Shown one piece after another: positions 658-35,529 of a stretch of 64,000 nucleotides of DNA. The stretch comes from Lutibacter sp. (GTDB taxonomy: Bacteria; Bacteroidota; Bacteroidia; Flavobacteriales; Flavobacteriaceae), in the NCBI RefSeq assembly GCF_013139515.1, contig NZ_WTAR01000030.1, positions 1-64,000 on the forward strand. Direction: 5' to 3'. The position numbers and the translations under genes were made by a program. How positions within the stretch are numbered: the stretch's first letter is position 1; each line of letters starts with the position of its first letter. Below the pieces are notes generated by a model. It saw nothing but the letters and a program-made list of their open reading frames with translations, was not told where the DNA came from and did not search any database.

Positions 658-927
658 TTATAATCCCTCTTTTTTATTTAGATGATTAATAACTATATTT
701 GAAAATATTTTTTTCATTTCATAATTATTACTGATATCACATATACATTCTTTTATTACTTTTTCAACCTCAACATCTATAAGGTGTTGGATATTTAAAG
801 TTGAGAAGGTTTTATCAACTGATTGATTAACCATTTCTGTTACTTCATCAGATTTTACCATCATAGCGCATTTAATTTCTTCCCTCATATAGCGAAGATC
901 CATTGTCAATATAGGCATTTCTTTCAT
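658..927 (-). CDS. Hypothetical protein
   Basis: ORF, overlaps end of DnaE-PHP gene by ATGA-type junction. Confidence 0.7.
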   Translation of the reverse strand: MKEMPILTMDLRYMREEIKCAMMVKSDEVTEMVNQSVDKTFSTLNIQHLIDVEVEKVIKECICDISNNYEMKKIFSNIVINHLNKKEGL

Positions 928-2795
928 AATTCACCTCTTAATTTTATTTCTTCACTGAAGATTTTTTTAAAACCACGTTCACACAAATCAATTAGTACAT
1001 CATCTTCATCCATACCTTTAAACCTTGGAACTTCAGGAAGACTAATTTCCTTTTTTTCTATTCTAAAATTCTCACATTTTTTAGCAATTTCAATAGTATT
1101 CTTCATTGCTTCATTATATTCATCATACTCTAAAACACATTGTTTGTCAAACTGTTTCTTCATTTCTTTTGGAGTTGTAAGATGTAAACCTGTTATATTA
1201 AACTTCCATCTTTTAGGATCATCCCAAGTAGTTTTGGTTTGCATTGCCAAAAGAACTTCTTGTGTTTCAGCATCATCTTCATATATGTAATGACAGTCCT
1301 GAGAAGCGCATAGTTTTAAATCATATTCTTCTGCTAATTCACAACATAAAGCATTTAAATCAGATTGTTCAATTAAACTATGTGGCATTACTTCAAGATA
1401 AAGATCATTACCTATTTTATTATATAATTTATCAAAAAAATCTAATCCTCCAGGTTTAGTAAGAAAACTGCCAGCACAAGCAGTACCAACACATAACCCT
1501 TCGCAATTATTGAGAAAATATTCATAATCAGTTCTAGGTCTATAATAGAACCCATATAGATTTGCATAAGAAAGATTTTTCAATAGATTTTCCCAACCTG
1601 TTTGATTTGCAACCCAACAAGTGAGATGTCCTCTATTATCTCCCTTCTCTTGAATAGTTGCATCTGGAACAATAAATAACTCACATCCCATGATAGGAAT
1701 AACATCATTCTTTTCACAAGCTGATTGATGTTTGATCAAGCCATCAATATTCCCGTGATCTGATATTCCTAAATATTTATAATTTAATTCTTTAGCACGT
1801 TTAGCAGCATCTTCATGTTTACCAATACCATCTAATAAACTATTATGAACAATAAAACCATTAGCAATAAAATTATGTTTCTCATGTTCAACTTCTATAT
1901 CATAAGCATAATCTGTACAAATATATTTTATAGAAGTTATTCTTTCTTTTTTTGCAGTATAAGGATATTTAGAATGTTTTTGCCTATGATGTTTTTTACA
2001 TAAAGCTATTAAATTGTTTTCCTCCCAATTCATTGGATTTTTATCAATATGATGAATATCTATTCTTTTAGTTGTTCCACATATTTTACATTTTTTTTCT
2101 ATATCAAACCATCTCTTTGATCTATTTCTTGCATTACTTTCTGTCACTGGTTCTGGTAAGTTATACCTATTTTGTTTCTTTTTATTTACTATTTTTTCTA
2201 TTGTTTTTGGATTGACATAATGACCTTTCATCCATTCAGATTTTGTTTTTTTAAGTTTAAACTTGGAAATCCATTTACTTATTATTTTTCTATTAACTCC
2301 ACAAATATCTCCAATTTGTTCTTGATTTAAATTTTCATCGTTGTATTTTTTCTTTAACCAATCATAATTTTTAAACTTTAATTCACCATTACATAAAATA
2401 TAATCATTATTTTTTAAAACTTTTAATGTTTTCCATCCACTTGGGGTTAGAAATTTATGTAATTTAGAAGCAGTTATTTTTTTACCATTTTCAGTAGTTA
2501 TTTCAAATAACTTCTTTTTATATTTACTTTTTACAATATCTTTAATTTTACTTTTTACAAAATTTTCTCCATCCCAAACTTTTATAGCGTATTTTTTATA
2601 TGTATATCCAACTCCTTTTCCTATTTTACATTCATATAAGTATTTAATTGTTTTGCATTTATCCAATCTAGTATAATCATTTCTATAAGTTTCTCTTGAA
2701 TTATTATGTTTTATACAATTATAAATAATCGTATTTCCATCTAGGCAATTAGACGAATGCCTATGAAGATGGCAAAATTTAGGAGATAAAGTCAT
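924..2795 (-). CDS. dnaE: DNA polymerase III alpha-type PHP domain protein, intein-containing, lacking the polymerase domain
   Basis: Extein HLHRHSSN/SLLDGIGKHEDAAKRAKELNYKYLGISDHGNIDGL...GHLTCWVANQTGWENLLKNLSYANLYGFYYRPR matches DnaE PHP; stops after ...LIDLCERGFKKIFSEEIKLRGEL. Confidence 0.85.
   Translation of the reverse strand: MTLSPKFCHLHRHSSNCLDGNTIIYNCIKHNNSRETYRNDYTRLDKCKTIKYLYECKIGKGVGYTYKKYAIKVWDGENFVKSKIKDIVKSKYKKKLFEITTENGKKITASKLHKFLTPSGWKTLKVLKNNDYILCNGELKFKNYDWLKKKYNDENLNQEQIGDICGVNRKIISKWISKFKLKKTKSEWMKGHYVNPKTIEKIVNKKKQNRYNLPEPVTESNARNRSKRWFDIEKKCKICGTTKRIDIHHIDKNPMNWEENNLIALCKKHHRQKHSKYPYTAKKERITSIKYICTDYAYDIEVEHEKHNFIANGFIVHNSLLDGIGKHEDAAKRAKELNYKYLGISDHGNIDGLIKHQSACEKNDVIPIMGCELFIVPDATIQEKGDNRGHLTCWVANQTGWENLLKNLSYANLYGFYYRPRTDYEYFLNNCEGLCVGTACAGSFLTKPGGLDFFDKLYNKIGNDLYLEVMPHSLIEQSDLNALCCELAEEYDLKLCASQDCHYIYEDDAETQEVLLAMQTKTTWDDPKRWKFNITGLHLTTPKEMKKQFDKQCVLEYDEYNEAMKNTIEIAKKCENFRIEKKEISLPEVPRFKGMDEDDVLIDLCERGFKKIFSEEIKLRGEL
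1842..2747 (-). other. Intein (class 1, HNH endonuclease type) in DnaE PHP motif
   Basis: Starts C (CLDGNTIIYN), block B TASKLHKFL, HNH core CKICGTTKRIDIHHIDKNPMNWEENNLIALCKKHH, ends YAYDIEVEHEKHNFIANGFIVHN|S. Confidence 0.9.
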
Positions 2796-5878: not shown

Positions 5879-6436
5879 TCAAGTTCCTGGTAATATAATA
5901 TTGTTTTCAACCTCATTACCCCATGTATCCCACCCATCGGTTGCTTGTCTTGCAAACAACTCGACCCTTGGCAAATCACCACATAGAGATATTATTCTAT
6001 CTCTAACTTCATCCGGTTTCTGACTGTGTTTTCTCTTAGGGGCTTGAACTATCTGTTGAACGTTCCTAGCCTCTCTATGGTATTTACCTTTTCTAGCTAT
6101 CAGGCAATATTCAGCATTAGATATAGTGTATTTACCTAATCCGTCCCTACGAACTTCGCTCATATCGTTCCTCATTTTTACCCAAACAAATCCGACAGTA
6201 GCGTACTTAAAGCCCCATTCTTTTATTACTGAAAACCCTTTTTCTAAGAATGGAGATGTCACCCACATGAAAAGATAACAGTTATCATGTGTAATTCTAG
6301 AGATAGGGAGTTCCTTGATGTCCTTCAATTTCATCACATCATAGTTCCTCTCCGCTATCCCCCAAAACTTACCAGTATGGTTTTTAGTGTTTCCATAATC
6401 CCAAGGAGGATCTGCGTAAATTATATTATACTTCAT
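5879..6436 (-). CDS. MT-A70 family N6-adenine methyltransferase
   Basis: YADPPWDYGNTKNHTG...DPPW motif, YLFMWVTSPF, KRKHSQKPDEVRDRI. Confidence 0.85.
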   Translation of the reverse strand: MKYNIIYADPPWDYGNTKNHTGKFWGIAERNYDVMKLKDIKELPISRITHDNCYLFMWVTSPFLEKGFSVIKEWGFKYATVGFVWVKMRNDMSEVRRDGLGKYTISNAEYCLIARKGKYHREARNVQQIVQAPKRKHSQKPDEVRDRIISLCGDLPRVELFARQATDGWDTWGNEVENNIILPGT

Positions 6437-24757: not shown

Positions 24758-26110
24758 ATGGAAGAAGAAAGACAAATTGAAAGGATAACAGGGGTTTATC
24801 TACCTGGACAAGTAATATTTAATAAAAACTTAACAATAATTGATTCTATAATATTTTGGCTGATTGATTCATTAGATAGTGCAAAAACAAACTGTTATGC
24901 TTCTAATGGGTATATTGCTAAAAGATTAAATATAAGTGAATCTAAAGTTTCAAGAGGAATTTCAAGATTGGTAGAGTTAGGGTACATTGAACAAGTAAGC
25001 TTTGATGGTAGAAAGAGGGTAATAAAGGTAATTCACAGTTATATGGAAAAGTATAAAAATCTTGTCGATGAATATAACTGCCTAACACAATCGTCCTACT
25101 CTGCCTCTCACGATCAGCCCAGGCAGCCTAACACGATCAGCCCAGTAGAAGTAAATAAGATTAATGAAATAAATGATGTAAATAATTCTTCTAAAGAAGA
25201 ATATACATCTTTAGACAGCAAAGATGATAATTTAAGTTTAAATGAAAAGAAACAATATATAAAAAAACATAAAAGAAGTTTAATAAGAAATTATTCATCT
25301 GAAGATAATAAAAGATCTAAGTTTAAAGAATCTTTAAAGAGCAATACTAAAACTTTAACTAAGAAAATAAAAGTAAATTTATCTAAAGACAATACAACTA
25401 TTGTGTCTCATTGGAATAACTTAGGTTTAAGACAACATAATTTAAACAACCCTACTAAGACTTTAGATAGGATTAATAATACTTTAGATAAATTAAACAA
25501 AGGTACTATGTTTAGTGAAACAAAGATTGAAAATAATAATAAATTTACTAAGCAGGAAATAATAGAGGCTATAACAAACTTTAGTTTAATGGCATTATCA
25601 CCAGATTATCAACCAGTAAGTGGTGGTTTTAAAGATAGATTAAAAAAACTCAGCTTAGATCAATTCATTTATAATGCTTTTGGTAGTGATAATATGAAAT
25701 CCCTATTTCTTGATTGTTTGAAAACCCCACAACTTTTAAAACAGTCATCAAGAACATTTTCAGATGATAACCCTGAATTAACAAAAGCCATTAAGCATAT
25801 CTACAATGAAAAAATTCTTGGGAGTATTAAATCTATTGAGTGGGATTCTTCAGATGAAAACAAATTTATCAAGGCATCAAAAGGATTATGGCAATTCTTT
25901 GAAGATAATAAATCTAAAGTTGACCACTACATTGTTGGATCATATGGAACAAGAGAAATTGGCATGGCAACAATACTATTAGAATCTGTAATACATTCAG
26001 TTGGTGAAGATCAATTTGAAATAATAACTCCAGGTTTTTTAAGAACAAGTTTGACATTTAGCCATAGATTACCATCCTACTGTTTTAGGGAAGGGATTAT
26101 AAATGAATAA
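24758..26110 (+). CDS. Winged-helix replication initiator-like protein (DnaD/RepA-like)
   Basis: N-terminal wHTH NGYIAKRLNISESKVSRGISRLVELGYIEQVSFDGRKRVIKV; contains iteron array. Confidence 0.55.
   Translation: MEEERQIERITGVYLPGQVIFNKNLTIIDSIIFWLIDSLDSAKTNCYASNGYIAKRLNISESKVSRGISRLVELGYIEQVSFDGRKRVIKVIHSYMEKYKNLVDEYNCLTQSSYSASHDQPRQPNTISPVEVNKINEINDVNNSSKEEYTSLDSKDDNLSLNEKKQYIKKHKRSLIRNYSSEDNKRSKFKESLKSNTKTLTKKIKVNLSKDNTTIVSHWNNLGLRQHNLNNPTKTLDRINNTLDKLNKGTMFSETKIENNNKFTKQEIIEAITNFSLMALSPDYQPVSGGFKDRLKKLSLDQFIYNAFGSDNMKSLFLDCLKTPQLLKQSSRTFSDDNPELTKAIKHIYNEKILGSIKSIEWDSSDENKFIKASKGLWQFFEDNKSKVDHYIVGSYGTREIGMATILLESVIHSVGEDQFEIITPGFLRTSLTFSHRLPSYCFREGIINE
25078..25146 (+). repeat. Three tandem 23-bp iterons (candidate replication origin)
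   Basis: CTGCCTAACACAATCGTCCTACT / CTGCCTCTCACGATCAGCCCAGG / CAGCCTAACACGATCAGCCCAGT. Confidence 0.75.
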
Positions 26111-28542: not shown

Positions 28543-28710
28543 AATTCCCCTTATGTTAGTTTGCTTAATATTTCAAGAACAAGAATTTGTTTTTCAATAA
28601 TTAAATCTCTTATATTGAGAGTGTCATCACTTTTTTGTTTAAAAATATCAATTTGTTTTTCTAAATCTTGAATTATGTTTTCCTGAATGACTAATTTAAA
28701 TTTAGAACAG

Positions 28711-28800
28711 TTTAAAAAATCCTTACAGTTGCCGTTATTAGAAAAAAAATCCTTACACTTTCAGTTATTAGAAAAAAAATCCGTACAGTTGCCGTTATTA
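28711..28800 (+). repeat. 30-bp tandem repeat, 3 copies
   Basis: TTTAAAAAATCCTTACAGTTGCCGTTATTA / GAAAAAAAATCCTTACACTTTCAGTTATTA / GAAAAAAAATCCGTACAGTTGCCGTTATTA. Confidence 0.9.
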
Positions 28801-29328
28801 GGGAGATAAGATTTAGTTCTTGTTTTCCTTTTTTTACGTTTTACGGATGTATAGTAAATTAAAAAATTTCCAGGCCGTATAGGTAGTTCTACCTACAAAA
28901 AGCACTTTTTCTGTAATATCAATGGTTTATGTCTTATCATCTTTTAACCCTTGAAAATGCCATTAAATCCCCTTGTAACGTTCTGTTAAATAATTTCTAT
29001 TGCCTAGTATTTAAAAAAGTTAAAGGCTGTTAGTGGAAAAATTAAACAGTGAAAAACACTATACAAAATCATAGTTCTACCTATTGTATCGGACAAAAAA
29101 AACACCATGCAAAATCAACCCTTGTTAAATAGCCTTAATTTCACTTGTAAAGCCTTTTTAAAAGATCAGCTTGTTTTAGTATACTATGAACTAATTGAGC
29201 TTATAACGGTTAAAATCTAACCCTTTAAACTATGTATATTATGCTGAGTAGATTAAAATTAACATTTTATAAGCTTTTTTAAAAATTCAATTACTAATTA
29301 ATTAAACCATCAAAAATGCCTATAACGC

Positions 29329-29365
29329 AAAAAAAGGCTATTAACTCAATTAAGAGTTAATAGCC
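29329..29365 (-). terminator. Rho-independent terminator of the leftward AAA+/DUF932 unit
   Basis: 12-bp perfect stem GGCTATTAACTC/GAGTTAATAGCC, loop 6 nt, followed on minus strand by T7. Confidence 0.9.
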
Positions 29366-29386
29366 TGTGAGTGCATGTTTTATAAA

Positions 29387-29659
29387 TTAAATAAATGTCA
29401 TCTTGCACATAGTGCCGCAATCACTAATATTAATGCCGATAGCAGAATTATTAGACACACCTATAATTCCATCAAATATACTATTTCCATCAGTTCTCAT
29501 ACATTCGGACAAATCCCATAAGATATGTTTTTCTGGCGTTTTATCTTCATCAGGCATTATATAAGTTATTTCTTCATAATTATCAGCGTTTGACATCGCT
29601 TCTTTTCGCCAGTCTTCAGGCAACTCATAAAAATTTACAAGCTCTTTATCATAGTTCAT
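29387..29659 (-). CDS. Hypothetical protein
   Basis: ORF. Confidence 0.55.
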   Translation of the reverse strand: MNYDKELVNFYELPEDWRKEAMSNADNYEEITYIMPDEDKTPEKHILWDLSECMRTDGNSIFDGIIGVSNNSAIGINISDCGTMCKMTFI

Positions 29660-29686
29660 GATTACACCTTTTTAAGTTAAATTTTA

Positions 29687-31102
29687 TTAATTAATAGTTC
29701 TACTAAAATTGTTATTTTCTATTGTTTTATTAGTTGTTAAATCATTGCTATTGGCTTTCCGATAATTTTTAGAAAATGCCTTAATTCTATCAATTTTAGA
29801 TTTGTTAGTTTTGTAAAGTGTAGGAGTATTAGCTAACAAGTATTTAATGTCATCAAAGTAGCTATCCTTTATAACTTGTTCAATCTCAGCACCTGAAAAA
29901 TTGAGCATTTTTTCACTAATATTAGTATTTATTTTAGTTTTATATTTTTTATTCATGATTGTGATAATTTCTTTTCGTTCTTCATTGTTTGGATAATCAA
30001 CAAAGAATATTGCGTCCCACCGACCACAACGTAAAAACTCACTAGGCAAGCTATCCAAATTATTAGCAGTTGCAACAATAACAGCATCGTTTGTGCGATC
30101 ATTAAACCATGTTAGCATATGCCCTAATTGACTTGAATTTGTACTATCTCCACTCCCAGTTGAAAATTGTTTTTCAATTTCATCCATTAAAACCACCGCA
30201 TTATTGCCTAATTTATCAATGATATCAGTAAATTTTCTTGTATTTTTTTCAGTTTCACCAACTAAGCTATTTTTCATATTACCCATGTTAGCAGTTATAA
30301 AGGTTCTATTCATTAGACTGGCAATAGTTTTACCTACCAAACTTTTTCCACAACCTGGGATACCGACCAGCATAATATTTTTCAATTTTGGCATATGACT
30401 ATTTTTTTCATCATATGCCTGTAAACGTTTATTTATATAAAGCTTAAGTGGTTTTAATCCCCCGACACTTTCAATATTTTCACTTTTACAGATAGTCATA
30501 AAACCAGAGTTATTAATTATGTTTTCTTTGCTGCTATCAATTATAGCCAAATCAATTTTTCCACTGTCAACAATAGATTTGGCTAGTATGTTTTGGCTTT
30601 CTTCAAATGAAAGACCTAGCAAGCAATTTGCTATTTTATCCACTGTTTTACTATTTAAAGTTTTCTTTATATTTTCGGGCAAATTTAAATTATTAATCAT
30701 ATCAATAAAATCTATTTTTTCCGGTAGATCAAAATTGATATCATGGACTATTTTATCAAAAAATGAATTTATTTTATCAGTTTGAACAATACACAGAGTG
30801 ACGCTATTATTTTTATATAGGTCTATATTATTCAAAACAAGTTGTAAAACACCTTTCTCTTCAAAGAACCAATTGCCACTTTCTATAAAAATAATACTAT
30901 TTTTTATAGTAGTAGAAAAATCTAATAAATCATTAATATTGACATATTCTGAATTTATACCGTTGATAGCATTCCAACAATATTTATTAAAAGGTTGATC
31001 AACATAAAAAGTATTGATCGCTCTTTTTATCTCATCAGTTTTAATATTTATCAGTGGAAAACTTGCCTTGACATAGTTTGTTAGATTGTAAGATTGTTTC
31101 AT
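29687..31102 (-). CDS. AAA+ ATPase, Ycf46-like
   Basis: VGIPGCGKSLVGKTIAS Walker A, VVLMDEIEKQF Walker B, ATANNLDSLPSEFLRCGRWD sensor/arginine finger; N-terminal half IFIESGNWFFEEKGVLQLVLNNI and SVGGLKPLKLYINKR. Confidence 0.85.
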   Translation of the reverse strand: MKQSYNLTNYVKASFPLINIKTDEIKRAINTFYVDQPFNKYCWNAINGINSEYVNINDLLDFSTTIKNSIIFIESGNWFFEEKGVLQLVLNNIDLYKNNSVTLCIVQTDKINSFFDKIVHDINFDLPEKIDFIDMINNLNLPENIKKTLNSKTVDKIANCLLGLSFEESQNILAKSIVDSGKIDLAIIDSSKENIINNSGFMTICKSENIESVGGLKPLKLYINKRLQAYDEKNSHMPKLKNIMLVGIPGCGKSLVGKTIASLMNRTFITANMGNMKNSLVGETEKNTRKFTDIIDKLGNNAVVLMDEIEKQFSTGSGDSTNSSQLGHMLTWFNDRTNDAVIVATANNLDSLPSEFLRCGRWDAIFFVDYPNNEERKEIITIMNKKYKTKINTNISEKMLNFSGAEIEQVIKDSYFDDIKYLLANTPTLYKTNKSKIDRIKAFSKNYRKANSNDLTTNKTIENNNFSRTIN

Positions 31103-31163
31103 TTTTACCCCTTGTTTTTTTGGTTTTTAAGCCTTTAATAAATATTGTTGTACGATATAACCA

Positions 31164-31204
31164 GAAAAGCGCAAAAAAACTTTAAAATGAATTTTTGCGC
31201 TTTA
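31164..31204 (-). terminator. Intercistronic hairpin between DUF932-like and AAA+ genes (attenuator/terminator)
   Basis: AAAGCGCAAAAA/TTTTTGCGCTTT 12-bp stem, followed on minus strand by TTTTC. Confidence 0.55.
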
Positions 31205-31215
31205 TTTGTCATAAT

Positions 31216-32202
31216 TTACAGGGTAATAGACCTAACAAGATTTTCATTTCTAATTTTTGTCGGCTCCATGTCAAGAATTAAATTTAATGACTTTTCAGCA
31301 AAGCTTTGACTACTACCAAATAATAAGCTTTCTTCCCTGTCGGTATTTTTCTTTAAACTGGATGCATGGTTAGTATAAAAAGTGACGGCATTAAATAATT
31401 CGTATCCAGTGCCTTTTTGGGCCGCAGGTACTTTGCTAGTAGTTGCGTTATTTTTAAGTATTTCAGCCACTTGCCGCATTTTATTAATACTAGTTGCGCT
31501 TTCCTTGTCATCAAAAAACGAAGAAATTAGAGTCATTTGTTTGTCGGGCGAAAATTCAATATTTGCCAAGTTCTTAAAAGTATTATGTAAACTAGTTTGT
31601 TTTTCTTGCAACTCTAAAAAAGTAGAAACGAAGTTGTCAATTTTAGCAGAACAACTTTTTGTTTGTTTGGCCGTGAAAGTTGTCTCATTAGCTAGATTGC
31701 CATACCATTGCACAAAAGTATTATTGCATTCAACTCTCTTGTCATTCAATCCAATGGTAGGTTTTTTGGTGCCATCAAGCGGCAATAGGCAACTGATATT
31801 ACTATTATGAGTGTTGCCTTCACCAATATTAAATTGTTTTCCTAATAGATTAAATATGATTTTTTCGCCTTTGCCAATACCACATATACTCTCAATATCG
31901 CCCAACTTATCAATTTTATCGAAAAAATCTTTCGGTTGTATAGGTGTAAAACGCCCTTTTGAGAGTCTTAAAATTGCACCATTGTCGTTATTTTCAAGAT
32001 AAAAGTGGTTTTTTATATCGTCACCATGTCTATCTTTTACACTATGTAATGTTACCTCAAAGTCACACTTGCTTAGTTCAAACAATGAATTGTTTGTAAC
32101 ATCCTTATAAATATAATTTTCGCCATTAGCCCACCATGGATTACTCACTTTGCTTGCAAATCTTTTTTCCTGCATTAAATGACTCATATTTTTTTCTCCC
32201 AA
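31216..32202 (-). CDS. DUF932-like phage/plasmid protein
   Basis: ISCLLPLDGTKKPTIGLNDKRVECNNTFVQWYGNLANETTFTAKQTKSCSAKIDNF and NAVTFYTNHASSLKK resemble the DUF932 / TIGR03299 family. Confidence 0.6.
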   Translation of the reverse strand: MGEKNMSHLMQEKRFASKVSNPWWANGENYIYKDVTNNSLFELSKCDFEVTLHSVKDRHGDDIKNHFYLENNDNGAILRLSKGRFTPIQPKDFFDKIDKLGDIESICGIGKGEKIIFNLLGKQFNIGEGNTHNSNISCLLPLDGTKKPTIGLNDKRVECNNTFVQWYGNLANETTFTAKQTKSCSAKIDNFVSTFLELQEKQTSLHNTFKNLANIEFSPDKQMTLISSFFDDKESATSINKMRQVAEILKNNATTSKVPAAQKGTGYELFNAVTFYTNHASSLKKNTDREESLLFGSSQSFAEKSLNLILDMEPTKIRNENLVRSITL

Positions 32203-32281
32203 TAAAAATTAATTTCTTATCTGATATATTCAGACAATAATGTAAAACAGTAAAACGAATTTAAAACAATTTAATTAGTTA

Positions 32282-32695
32282 TCAGATATCAAGTTTTTGT
32301 ATTTGGCCTTTTTTATTACGATAAAAAACGTTGTTTGACTCAGCAAGTTTTTCAAGGGCTGAGTCTTTGCTTAGTATATCACAACTCTCAGTGTTCTTTT
32401 TTACATACTCAGCACAACAATAATTGATATAATCGGCACGTTTTTGGATAACATCTGCAATATGCTCTACCGAATTTTTTTTGTTATAACTTGTTAAACT
32501 GGGTATCGGCATAGATAAATCAATAGTAAGATCGCCAAATTGTACATTGTCAAGATGAGATAGTGATAAGTCATTGTGTTGATAAGAGTTACTAGTCTGA
32601 CTGACACAGTACGAGACTTTATGATCAACCGCTGGTAATTCTGTAAAATTAATATTGATATTGCCGAATTCGCTTACTTTTTTTGTTACTTTCAT
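32282..32695 (-). CDS. Hypothetical protein
   Basis: ORF in minus-strand unit. Confidence 0.6.
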   Translation of the reverse strand: MKVTKKVSEFGNININFTELPAVDHKVSYCVSQTSNSYQHNDLSLSHLDNVQFGDLTIDLSMPIPSLTSYNKKNSVEHIADVIQKRADYINYCCAEYVKKNTESCDILSKDSALEKLAESNNVFYRNKKGQIQKLDI

Positions 32696-32762
32696 AATCT
32701 TTTTCTCACTTTTTAAATTGTTTTTTTTTTGGTTAAAAAGACTTTAAAAAATTATTTATAAT

Positions 32763-32945
32763 TTAATTAACTAAACAAGTCAAGGGCGATATCTTGTTAG
32801 TATCATTATCCAGCATTTTATCAACTTCTAAAAAATCCGTATTCAATCCGTTATTTTCACATTGATAAGCATAAAAATCTTTTTGAGCCTGTAATGATTT
32901 TTTATTCAAGGTAGTTTTGATTTTAATAGTTTGTTTTTTAGTCAT
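32763..32945 (-). CDS. Hypothetical protein
   Basis: ORF. Confidence 0.5.
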   Translation of the reverse strand: MTKKQTIKIKTTLNKKSLQAQKDFYAYQCENNGLNTDFLEVDKMLDNDTNKISPLTCLVN

Positions 32946-33006
32946 AGCGCAACCCCTTTTTATAGTGTTTTAATAGCGGCAAATATTGCCAGTACAGTGA
33001 TTTACT

Positions 33007-33225
33007 TTATATAGTGTATAATTCCACAAAACAATCAATTTTTTGTTTAAAGCTCAATTTCTCCCATACAGGGGATAATTTCAATGTGTTATAAATATCA
33101 TTTATTCTCAAATTGTTATTCAATCCGAATACCATTTTCAGCAAGTTAATATTATTTTCTATAAGTACAAAAAGAACAAAATTAATCATGGTAATCATTA
33201 ATCCTATAAAAATAATGTTAATCAT
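33007..33225 (-). CDS. Small membrane protein
   Basis: MINIIFIGLMITMINFVLFVLI TM helix. Confidence 0.55.
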   Translation of the reverse strand: MINIIFIGLMITMINFVLFVLIENNINLLKMVFGLNNNLRINDIYNTLKLSPVWEKLSFKQKIDCFVELYTI

Positions 33226-33236
33226 AATAAGCCCCT

Positions 33237-33371
33237 TTAGTTACTTGTTAGTAGTGCAAAATAAGTGATACTAGTCATCATCAAACAAAATAGACCAGTA
33301 TAGACAAAAGCACAAAATACTTTCTGTAATCGAGTTAATCCCTTTTTTGTTTTCCTATAAGTATTAATCAT
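33237..33371 (-). CDS. Small membrane protein (44 aa)
   Basis: MINTYRKTKKGLTRLQKVFCAFVYTGLFCLMMTSITYFALLTSN; GGGAGA upstream; not in ORF track. Confidence 0.5.
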   Translation of the reverse strand: MINTYRKTKKGLTRLQKVFCAFVYTGLFCLMMTSITYFALLTSN

Positions 33372-33415
33372 CTTGTCTCCCTTATTTTCTAAGTTAAATA
33401 AATACTACAGTTATA

Positions 33416-33444
33416 CTTTTATTAACTAATCAAACTAATGTCAA
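33416..33444 (-). promoter_or_regulatory. sigma70-like promoter of leftward AAA+/DUF932 unit
   Basis: Minus strand TTGACA 33444-33439, N17, TAAAAG 33421-33416. Confidence 0.45.
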
Positions 33445-33900
33445 GAAAATAATTTAAAATAATTCACTTTTTCAAAATAAATAAAAGTACCATATTTTAT
33501 GCTATTACCAATCCTCTCATATACCTTTATATAATAACTAATGATATTAATACCTTATATATATGATTAACTAGTACTGTTATCTAACTATTAACCCTAT
33601 ATGGCACTAACTAACCTTTAACCTATGTATAGCGGTATATAATGTATTGAGTAGTGGATAAAGCCTATTAGTATATTAATAGTTATGAGTCTATGTATAT
33701 AATGTATAAGAGTATGGTTTAATGTATAAGAGTTATATAAATAGATTGTTTAGTTTAATGAAAAATAGATAATTGTTTAGTGAAAAATAAATAAGGCGGC
33801 ACCACCACCCGCCCATGCCTATTCATTTGTAAAACTATTTAACTACCTATATAGTAGGACAACTAACTGATTAAGCATTTAACTATATACTATAATAGGT

Positions 33901-33924
33901 AGTTCTATTTAAACAAATAGAACT
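33901..33924. repeat. Perfect 10-bp inverted repeat
   Basis: AGTTCTATTT-AAAC-AAATAGAACT. Confidence 0.8.
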
Positions 33925-34495
33925 TATTCAGTGCCTGTTAATATTCTTATTTATTTAAATAGGATATATCTAGCCATTCTATGTACTGTCTATATATTGA
34001 CACGTTCTATTGTATAGGTATAACTACTTAATCTCTTAAAGGGGGTAAAAATAGATTATAAGAGGTTTAAACAGTTAACCATGCCAGTATATACAATCTA
34101 TTTAACTGTACTATTGGTAATGATTACTATTAAAAATAAATGTAATGATATCAATGACTTATATATTGTTTAGTATTTAACTATTTAATAAAATACTAAT
34201 ATATTTTATGTAATGATATCAATTACTTAGCCATTCTATTATTTATTTTACCCCTAGTGTATTAGGATATATATTACTATGTCAACATATTGACAATTTT
34301 AATCATGCCAATATATAAAATATATTTATAAATACATAGGGAACAAACAAACAAAGCTTTATTCAACTACTAACAATCTCAATGCATACCCCTTTAATTA
34401 ATATAGTTTATTCTATTCTATTTATATAAGTGCATAGGGGGGTAATAGAAGGGTTAAATATATAAGGGGTAATAGATAAGATATATATATTAAAT

Positions 34496-34529
34496 AGATA
34501 ACTATATTAAAGAGATAACTATATTAAAG
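34496..34529 (+). repeat. 17-bp perfect tandem duplication
   Basis: AGATAACTATATTAAAG x2, directly abutting G-run. Confidence 0.85.
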
Positions 34530-34977
34530 GGGGTGGGGTGTTTTGTTCCGAGGGGGGGGTGGTTAATAGACCGTGACGGCACATCCCCATAACTAGAATA
34601 GATTTTTTCAAACTTAGAAGGTGGAATATAAATAACTGGTATATAAGTAAACTATAAATATAAATAACTAGGAAAACATATAACTATTTCTACTCTCAAA
34701 TCCTAGACTGTTAAACTTATAGGGTGGGGTAGGGGTAGTTCTAAACCAGAAAAATCAGAAACCAGTAGTCTATATGAAATATAAAATATATATAAAAATA
34801 TCAAAACATTTAGTTAGGTTATAATAAGTATAAACTGTAAGGATATTAAAGTATAAAACTATTTAAACCGATAATAAGCTATACTTGACAGTATTTAATT
34901 AAATGCTTACATTACAGTATTGACCACTGGTAGATGTTTAAGCTGGAAGTATAATAAACTAAATAGGGGGAAAGATT

Positions 34978-35529
34978 ATGACTTGTATCGTTGGGATGGT
35001 AAGAGATAATAAAGTTTATATAGGTGGTGACAGTGCTGGTGTTAGTGGATTAAATATTAGGGTACGAAATGATAAGAAAGTATTCAAGAACAAAAATATG
35101 ATATTTGGCTGTACATCATCATTTAGGATGATCAATCTATTAAGGTATAAACTGGTAATACCTAAACAAAAATCAAATATGACTGATTATGAGTATTTGT
35201 GTACAGATTTTATAGATGAGGTCATTAAGTGTTTTAAGGACAATGGATTTTCAAATATAAATAATAATGAGGAATCGGGTGGTACATTCCTCATTGGGTA
35301 TAAAAGTAATCTTTATTGTATAGAAAGTGATTATCAAGTTGCAATGGTTAAGGATAGTTATGATTCGTGTGGATCTGGATCTAATTATGCTTTAGGTTCA
35401 ATGAAGACTTTATATAATTGGGATTCTTTTGAAGATTGTGAACCAGAAGTTTATATAACTGAAGCTTTAAGTGCTGCTGAATATTTTAGTTGCGGTGTTT
35501 ACAAACCATTTAATATAGTGAGTTTGTAA
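34978..35529 (+). CDS. Proteasome beta/HslV-like Ntn-hydrolase family protein
   Basis: MTCIVGMVRDNKVYIGGDSAGVSG...KKVF...MIFGCTSSFRM...SCGSGSNYALGSM. Confidence 0.6.
   Translation: MTCIVGMVRDNKVYIGGDSAGVSGLNIRVRNDKKVFKNKNMIFGCTSSFRMINLLRYKLVIPKQKSNMTDYEYLCTDFIDEVIKCFKDNGFSNINNNEESGGTFLIGYKSNLYCIESDYQVAMVKDSYDSCGSGSNYALGSMKTLYNWDSFEDCEPEVYITEALSAAEYFSCGVYKPFNIVSL

Follow-up and report, generated by a model that had tools for sequence, protein, structure and literature searches.

A leftward seven-gene unit carrying a Ycf46-like AAA+ ATPase and a DUF932-type protein as candidate accessory cargo of a tailed phage

SgiA of SGI1 belongs, as an AAA ATPase, to the SpoVK/Ycf46/Vps4 superfamily (PMC10954446) and serves as antitoxin to a subtilisin-like toxin (PMC5006074); SgiA excepted, Ycf46 is met in the literature mostly in plastid genomes. 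For DUF932, a literature search whose sources were available in part returned passing mentions, never in a title or abstract, and no functional study. Members of both families are common on mobile elements, yet what they do is obscure. One member of each was found in a minus-strand unit at positions 33371-29387 of a 64,000-nucleotide window, which comprises bases 1-64,000 of contig NZ_WTAR01000030.1 (107,614 bp; assembly GCF_013139515.1, Lutibacter sp.). The unit, called the cassette below, was interpreted as a moron-type accessory transcription unit that was acquired horizontally and is centred on a protein-remodelling AAA+ ATPase, and this reading was given a probability of about 0.55.

The cassette comprises seven open reading frames (ORFs) with a plausible ribosome-binding site (RBS) for each, in the order p44, p72, p60, p137, DUF932, AAA+ and p90, and is transcribed against its rightward neighbours. 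It is closed by a strong intrinsic terminator (29328-29366, minus strand; perfect 13-bp stem at 29335-29366 plus T7; −22.9 kcal/mol, z −7.6), and the DUF932 and AAA+ genes are separated by a hairpin with a T-rich tail (31166-31203, minus strand; minimum free energy −20.4 kcal/mol, z −5.2). When the 92 genes were ranked by the distance of their codon usage from the phage's own, p137 came first, DUF932 third and AAA+ fifth; codon usage is the real compositional signal of the cassette and marks it as foreign. The genes for replication, recombination, capsid and tail are found outside it on a complete circular contig, which supports the accessory reading. A preliminary description, made from the sequence alone, had proposed a complete leftward unit with two tiny membrane proteins, a T7 terminator, an internal hairpin and repeat-rich flanks, all of which held, and its interpretation as an accessory cassette is borne out by the opposite orientation, the terminator, the foreign codon usage and the location of replication and structural genes elsewhere.

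The ATPase (471 amino acids; 29687-31102, minus strand) was assigned by Pfam, PHROGs, motifs and structural model, with scores of 82.3 bits against Pfam AAA (cut-off 21) and 3e-67 against phrog_8638. Its C-terminal module keeps both Walker motifs (A, GIPGCGKS; B, VVLMDEIEK), both arginine fingers and sensor 1, and no Walker A was found by motif search in the first ~200 residues. The model (predicted local distance difference test, pLDDT, 89.5) aligns lengthwise with the tandem D1-D2 ATPases Cdc48/p97, Drg1 and Rix7, its best fold matches, and a degenerate first AAA module followed by an active second module is thus predicted from it. Relatives at ~25-34% identity were found in 93 phage records, in genomes and in 739 plasmid records, many from IncC plasmids; the similarity to plasmid, phage and cyanobacterial relatives extends over the full length, and a DUF1257-type gene stands within two genes of ~26 of 131 relatives, and the earlier label 'Ycf46-like' fits, some relatives adjoining DUF1257/DUF2997 genes. 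None of the typical neighbours (DUF1257, DUF2997-like or a ~266-amino acid protein) was found on the whole 107-kb contig.

According to the accessory reading, the phage would have acquired the block horizontally, with transcription opposing the rightward neighbours and ending at its own terminator. The ATPase would assemble into a ring like that of Cdc48; its degenerate first module may bind or position a partner, and the intact second module would spend ATP on pulling apart or remodelling a protein complex, presumably in a role directed at the host or at a competitor. The hairpin ahead of the ATPase gene probably gives the ATPase a different expression level. DUF932 and the small proteins do not make up a conserved set of partners and are more probably cargo in their own right, or adaptors.

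The DUF932 protein (323 amino acids; 31216-32187, minus strand) was read from an ATG behind GGGAG, an alternative listed TTG start at 32202 being less likely. It scored 39.8 bits against PF06067 (cut-off 23), matched phrog_1221 at 1e-18 and reached 52.1 bits against TIGR03299 (NCBIfam), under the cut-off of 110.7; like the ATPase, it is above its Pfam cut-off, as the family assignments proposed earlier would have it. The conserved residues R151, C154, N156, T157 and N266 are retained. The significant fold matches of the model (pLDDT 87.5) were almost all DUF932-type or unnamed viral proteins, and a tree, with long branches, gave the protein no firm position. DUF932 was present in 38 of 297 sampled Bacteroidota genomes, about one in eight; a tblastn search of plasmids with the divergent cassette protein as query gave none.

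The occurrence of DUF932 and AAA+ in one unit before a single terminator could mean that they act together as a two-component system against phages or for superinfection exclusion, in which the small membrane proteins would be the effectors. This would be in keeping with the E. coli CP4-57 DUF932 protein (YfjQ), whose accessory island also has genes for anti-phage, toxin-antitoxin and antirestriction functions, and with three Bacteroidota islands in which DUF932 is 7-12 kb from a tandem AAA ATPase that is larger than, and different from, the one described here. The best PADLOC match of the ATPase, a weak one, was moreover the defence ATPase IetA (6.5e-18). This match, however, spans the AAA domain only, as do the other PADLOC matches of the cassette, which were weak AAA-domain matches throughout, and the score against NF042959, the NCBIfam model of the antiphage ATPase, was 57.8 bits, far under its cut-off of 510. 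The neighbourhood counts, which are samples among the matches listed and not a census, also speak against such a system: the DUF932 profile, which does recover remote DUF932 proteins elsewhere, had no match in 155 sampled loci around ATPase relatives, and one weak AAA match was seen among 80 sampled viral DUF932 loci. No linkage emerged on whole records either, with no AAA match on 17 whole viral records and DUF932 in 1 of 31 records with ATPase relatives, there on an unrelated contig. AAA+ and DUF932 are not a conserved pair; the genes occur scattered, contrary to the single AAA+/DUF932 system suggested in the preliminary description, and a two-component system is unlikely. Because the pair is not conserved, accessory cargo was preferred as the reading of the block over any defence or maintenance system that could be recognised in it. 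As a separate observation, the ~670-720-amino acid double AAA ATPase of the Bacteroidota islands is followed by a ~750-amino acid protein without assigned family, 7-12 kb from DUF932-YqaJ, and one of the three islands also has RadC and VapE-like genes; the ATPase and the ~750-amino acid protein are a possible defence module.

The slot upstream of a recombination exonuclease in phage recombination operons is normally occupied by a single-strand annealing protein. In the three Bacteroidota islands the gene immediately downstream of DUF932 is YqaJ by Pfam (two islands scanned) and a RecE-like exonuclease by PHROGs (one island scanned), and the third gene matched phrog_862 in both islands scanned. 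Of 25 loci of short DUF932 proteins (~255 amino acids) in one Bacteroidota order, 18 have a YqaJ/RecE-like exonuclease gene as the next gene downstream on the same strand, very divergent DUF932 copies included, and the short class is homologous to the long one (hhalign 97%, E 2e-11). The cassette protein could by this evidence be a single-strand annealing protein and the unit a recombination module of the phage; its predicted order of elements (hairpin at 45-66, three strands at 97-136, helix at 155-163) can be reconciled with the annealase core that PMC11783212 describes. Against this, none of 25 loci of the long TIGR03299-type class, to which the cassette protein belongs by length, had a neighbouring exonuclease gene, the cassette itself contains none, and the UvsX-like recombinase and exonuclease of the phage are encoded elsewhere. 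The model had no match among solved structures (Foldseek PDB), annealases included; no profile match to lambda Red-beta was obtained with hhalign, and no Pfam RecT, ERF or Rad52 match. When 124 genes neighbouring viral DUF932 were scanned with Pfam, the 25 of 52 matches listed contained no recombination family. An annealing role in a recombination module is thus doubtful for the cassette, and the broader idea that DUF932 is an unrecognised strand-annealing family, of which the cassette would join a divergent representative to a remodelling ATPase of the Cdc48 type, is speculative and improbable. The exonuclease neighbourhood of the short proteins is nevertheless a concrete functional lead for DUF932.

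Two further proposals concern the ATPase. The superfamily and antitoxin role of SgiA (PMC10954446, PMC5006074), together with the weak IetA matches, would be consistent with the ATPase acting as antitoxin or in defence after the manner of SgiAT/IetAS, where an AAA ATPase is partnered by a subtilisin-like protease; the cassette, however, has no subtilase, and the flanking 90- and 137-amino acid proteins are too small and match nothing. With the protease missing, SgiAT/IetAS identity is largely refuted, and the proposal is very improbable. An HslV/proteasome-like peptidase gene lies nearby (34978-35529, plus strand; N-terminal MT and GGD motif, phrog_1040 at 2e-22), and the best NCBIfam match of the ATPase was the proteasome-activating nucleotidase, which would fit an ATP-dependent protease formed by the two products. 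That match is generic and far under its cut-off, and the C-terminus of the ATPase (NNNFSRTIN) lacks the proteasome-docking HbYX motif. The peptidase gene is on the opposite strand across a 1.5-kb gap and its codon usage is more phage-typical; an HslV-like gene adjoined 0 of the 155 sampled AAA+ loci, and such a partnership is very unlikely. A partition system was rejected, there being no ParA match on the contig; the plasmid-like maintenance considered in the preliminary description has no support, as no tyrosine integrase was found on the contig and no toxin partner either.

Several points weigh against the accessory reading. The GC content of the cassette (29.1%) is not distinct from that of the phage (window 28.6%, coding genes 29.5%, standard deviation (sd) 3.9), so the earlier statement that it is visibly less AT-rich does not hold, and the foreign codon usage could also be due to old divergence or to expression level. 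The sigma-70-like promoter TTGACA-N17-TAAAAG read from the sequence (33416-33444, minus strand) is present as first described, but promoter-like sites are not above chance, with 53 sigma-70-like sites in the region against 43.5 (sd 6.7) in shuffles. No close phage relative was found, and hence no sister phage showing an empty cassette site. At the pore loop the ATPase has SLVG where an archaeal Cdc48 relative has the aromatic KWVG; unfolding by threading is less certain because the aromatic residue of classical unfoldases is replaced by Leu. On balance the layout, terminator, hairpin and repeats of the preliminary description stand, its lower AT content does not, and its promoter cannot be told from chance matches; of its interpretation, the accessory cassette and the Ycf46-like assignment are retained, and neither the conserved AAA+/DUF932 system nor plasmid maintenance finds support.

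The contig belongs to a tailed phage, as it carries genes for DNA polymerase, primase, DnaB, a second DNA helicase and ribonucleotide reductase, for large and small terminase, head protease and an HK97-type major capsid protein, and for a lambda-J-like tail protein, a UvsX-like recombinase and an exonuclease. Its first and last 127 bases are identical, and because of this overlap it is most likely a complete, circular genome of ~107.5 kb. GGAG/AGGA precedes ~45% of the contig genes but none of 66 genes taken as a sample from the remainder of the draft genome; since the type of RBS differs in this way, the host is probably not the binned organism, which suggests that the contig was mis-binned. 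No tyrosine integrase was found on the contig, and lysogeny is not evident. Single-protein scans of IMG/VR gave no close relative of DUF932, the ATPase, p137, p90, terminase or capsid; megablast of the structural region against phages and blastn of the cassette region against plasmids gave no DNA similarity.

The small genes of the cassette are all on the minus strand. p44 (44 amino acids; 33237-33371, RBS aagggag) and p72 (72 amino acids; 33007-33225, RBS aaagggg) are membrane-like, with best 19-residue hydropathies of 1.8 and 2.86, the segment of p72 being N-terminal, and neither had a family match in Pfam or PHROGs. p60 (60 amino acids; 32763-32945, RBS aaaagggg) had no credible family match in either database. 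p137 (137 amino acids; 32282-32695, plausible RBS) has no assigned family, with no Pfam match, no credible PHROG match and no relative in phages or IMG/VR. p90 (90 amino acids; 29387-29659, RBS aaaggtg) likewise has no assigned family, and no relatives were found in Pfam, PHROGs or the IMG/VR scan. Rfam gave no match in the cassette region.

The right flank (33445-34977) separates the cassette from the rightward HslV-like gene by 1.5 kb of AT-rich, repeat-rich intergenic DNA and is, by a simple ORF picker, the longest gap of the phage. It contained 34 repeated 11-mers against 5.9 (sd 3.8) in Markov shuffles, and the left non-coding flank (28543-29386), between the rightward genes and the cassette, contained 25 against 2.4 (sd 2.6). 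Two near-perfect palindromes TGTCNANATATTGACA lie in the right, divergent intergenic region (33987-34002 and 34280-34295), with no others in the window; they are possible operators. Three tandem 30-bp repeats in the left flank (28714-28803) are conceivable as iterons because a replication-initiator homologue is encoded at 24758-26110 of the window.

Elsewhere on the contig, the DNA polymerase ORF (window 924-2795) has, ahead of the part that matches a polymerase, an HNH endonuclease-like stretch (residues ~139-299) that may be an inserted homing element. An MT-A70-type adenine methyltransferase gene (window 5879-6436) ranks fourth of 92 in codon atypicality. A 1164-amino acid protein with laminin-G/concanavalin-like domains (contig 75929-79423) has foreign codon usage (rank 2 of 92) and is likely an acquired receptor-binding or tail protein.

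A complete phage in which both families are present as foreign cargo that can be separated is a compact object for genetic testing, and these two widespread, poorly understood families are of more interest than the cassette itself. Compared with IetAS/SgiAT, the cassette ATPase has an AAA domain of a related group, and the similarity is confined to that domain. With the TIGR03299/DUF932 'phage/plasmid-like proteins', the DUF932 protein shares the core R-x-x-C-x-N-T motif and phrog_1221, but identity is ~20% and several otherwise conserved positions are altered. Full-length similarity links the ATPase to the Ycf46-like family (phrog_8638; IncC plasmid ATPase; Rhizobium phage RHph_I4 EVC24_084), with the same catalytic motifs and the same layout of first and second half; other neighbours of these relatives are sometimes a small DUF2997-like protein and, in 22 loci, the ~266-amino acid protein. 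Phage 'moron' cassettes have one or two genes and the present one seven, and here a sister phage with an empty site and evident lysogeny are lacking; the cassette nevertheless shares with them its own terminator, the opposite orientation, the place between phage gene blocks and the foreign codon usage.

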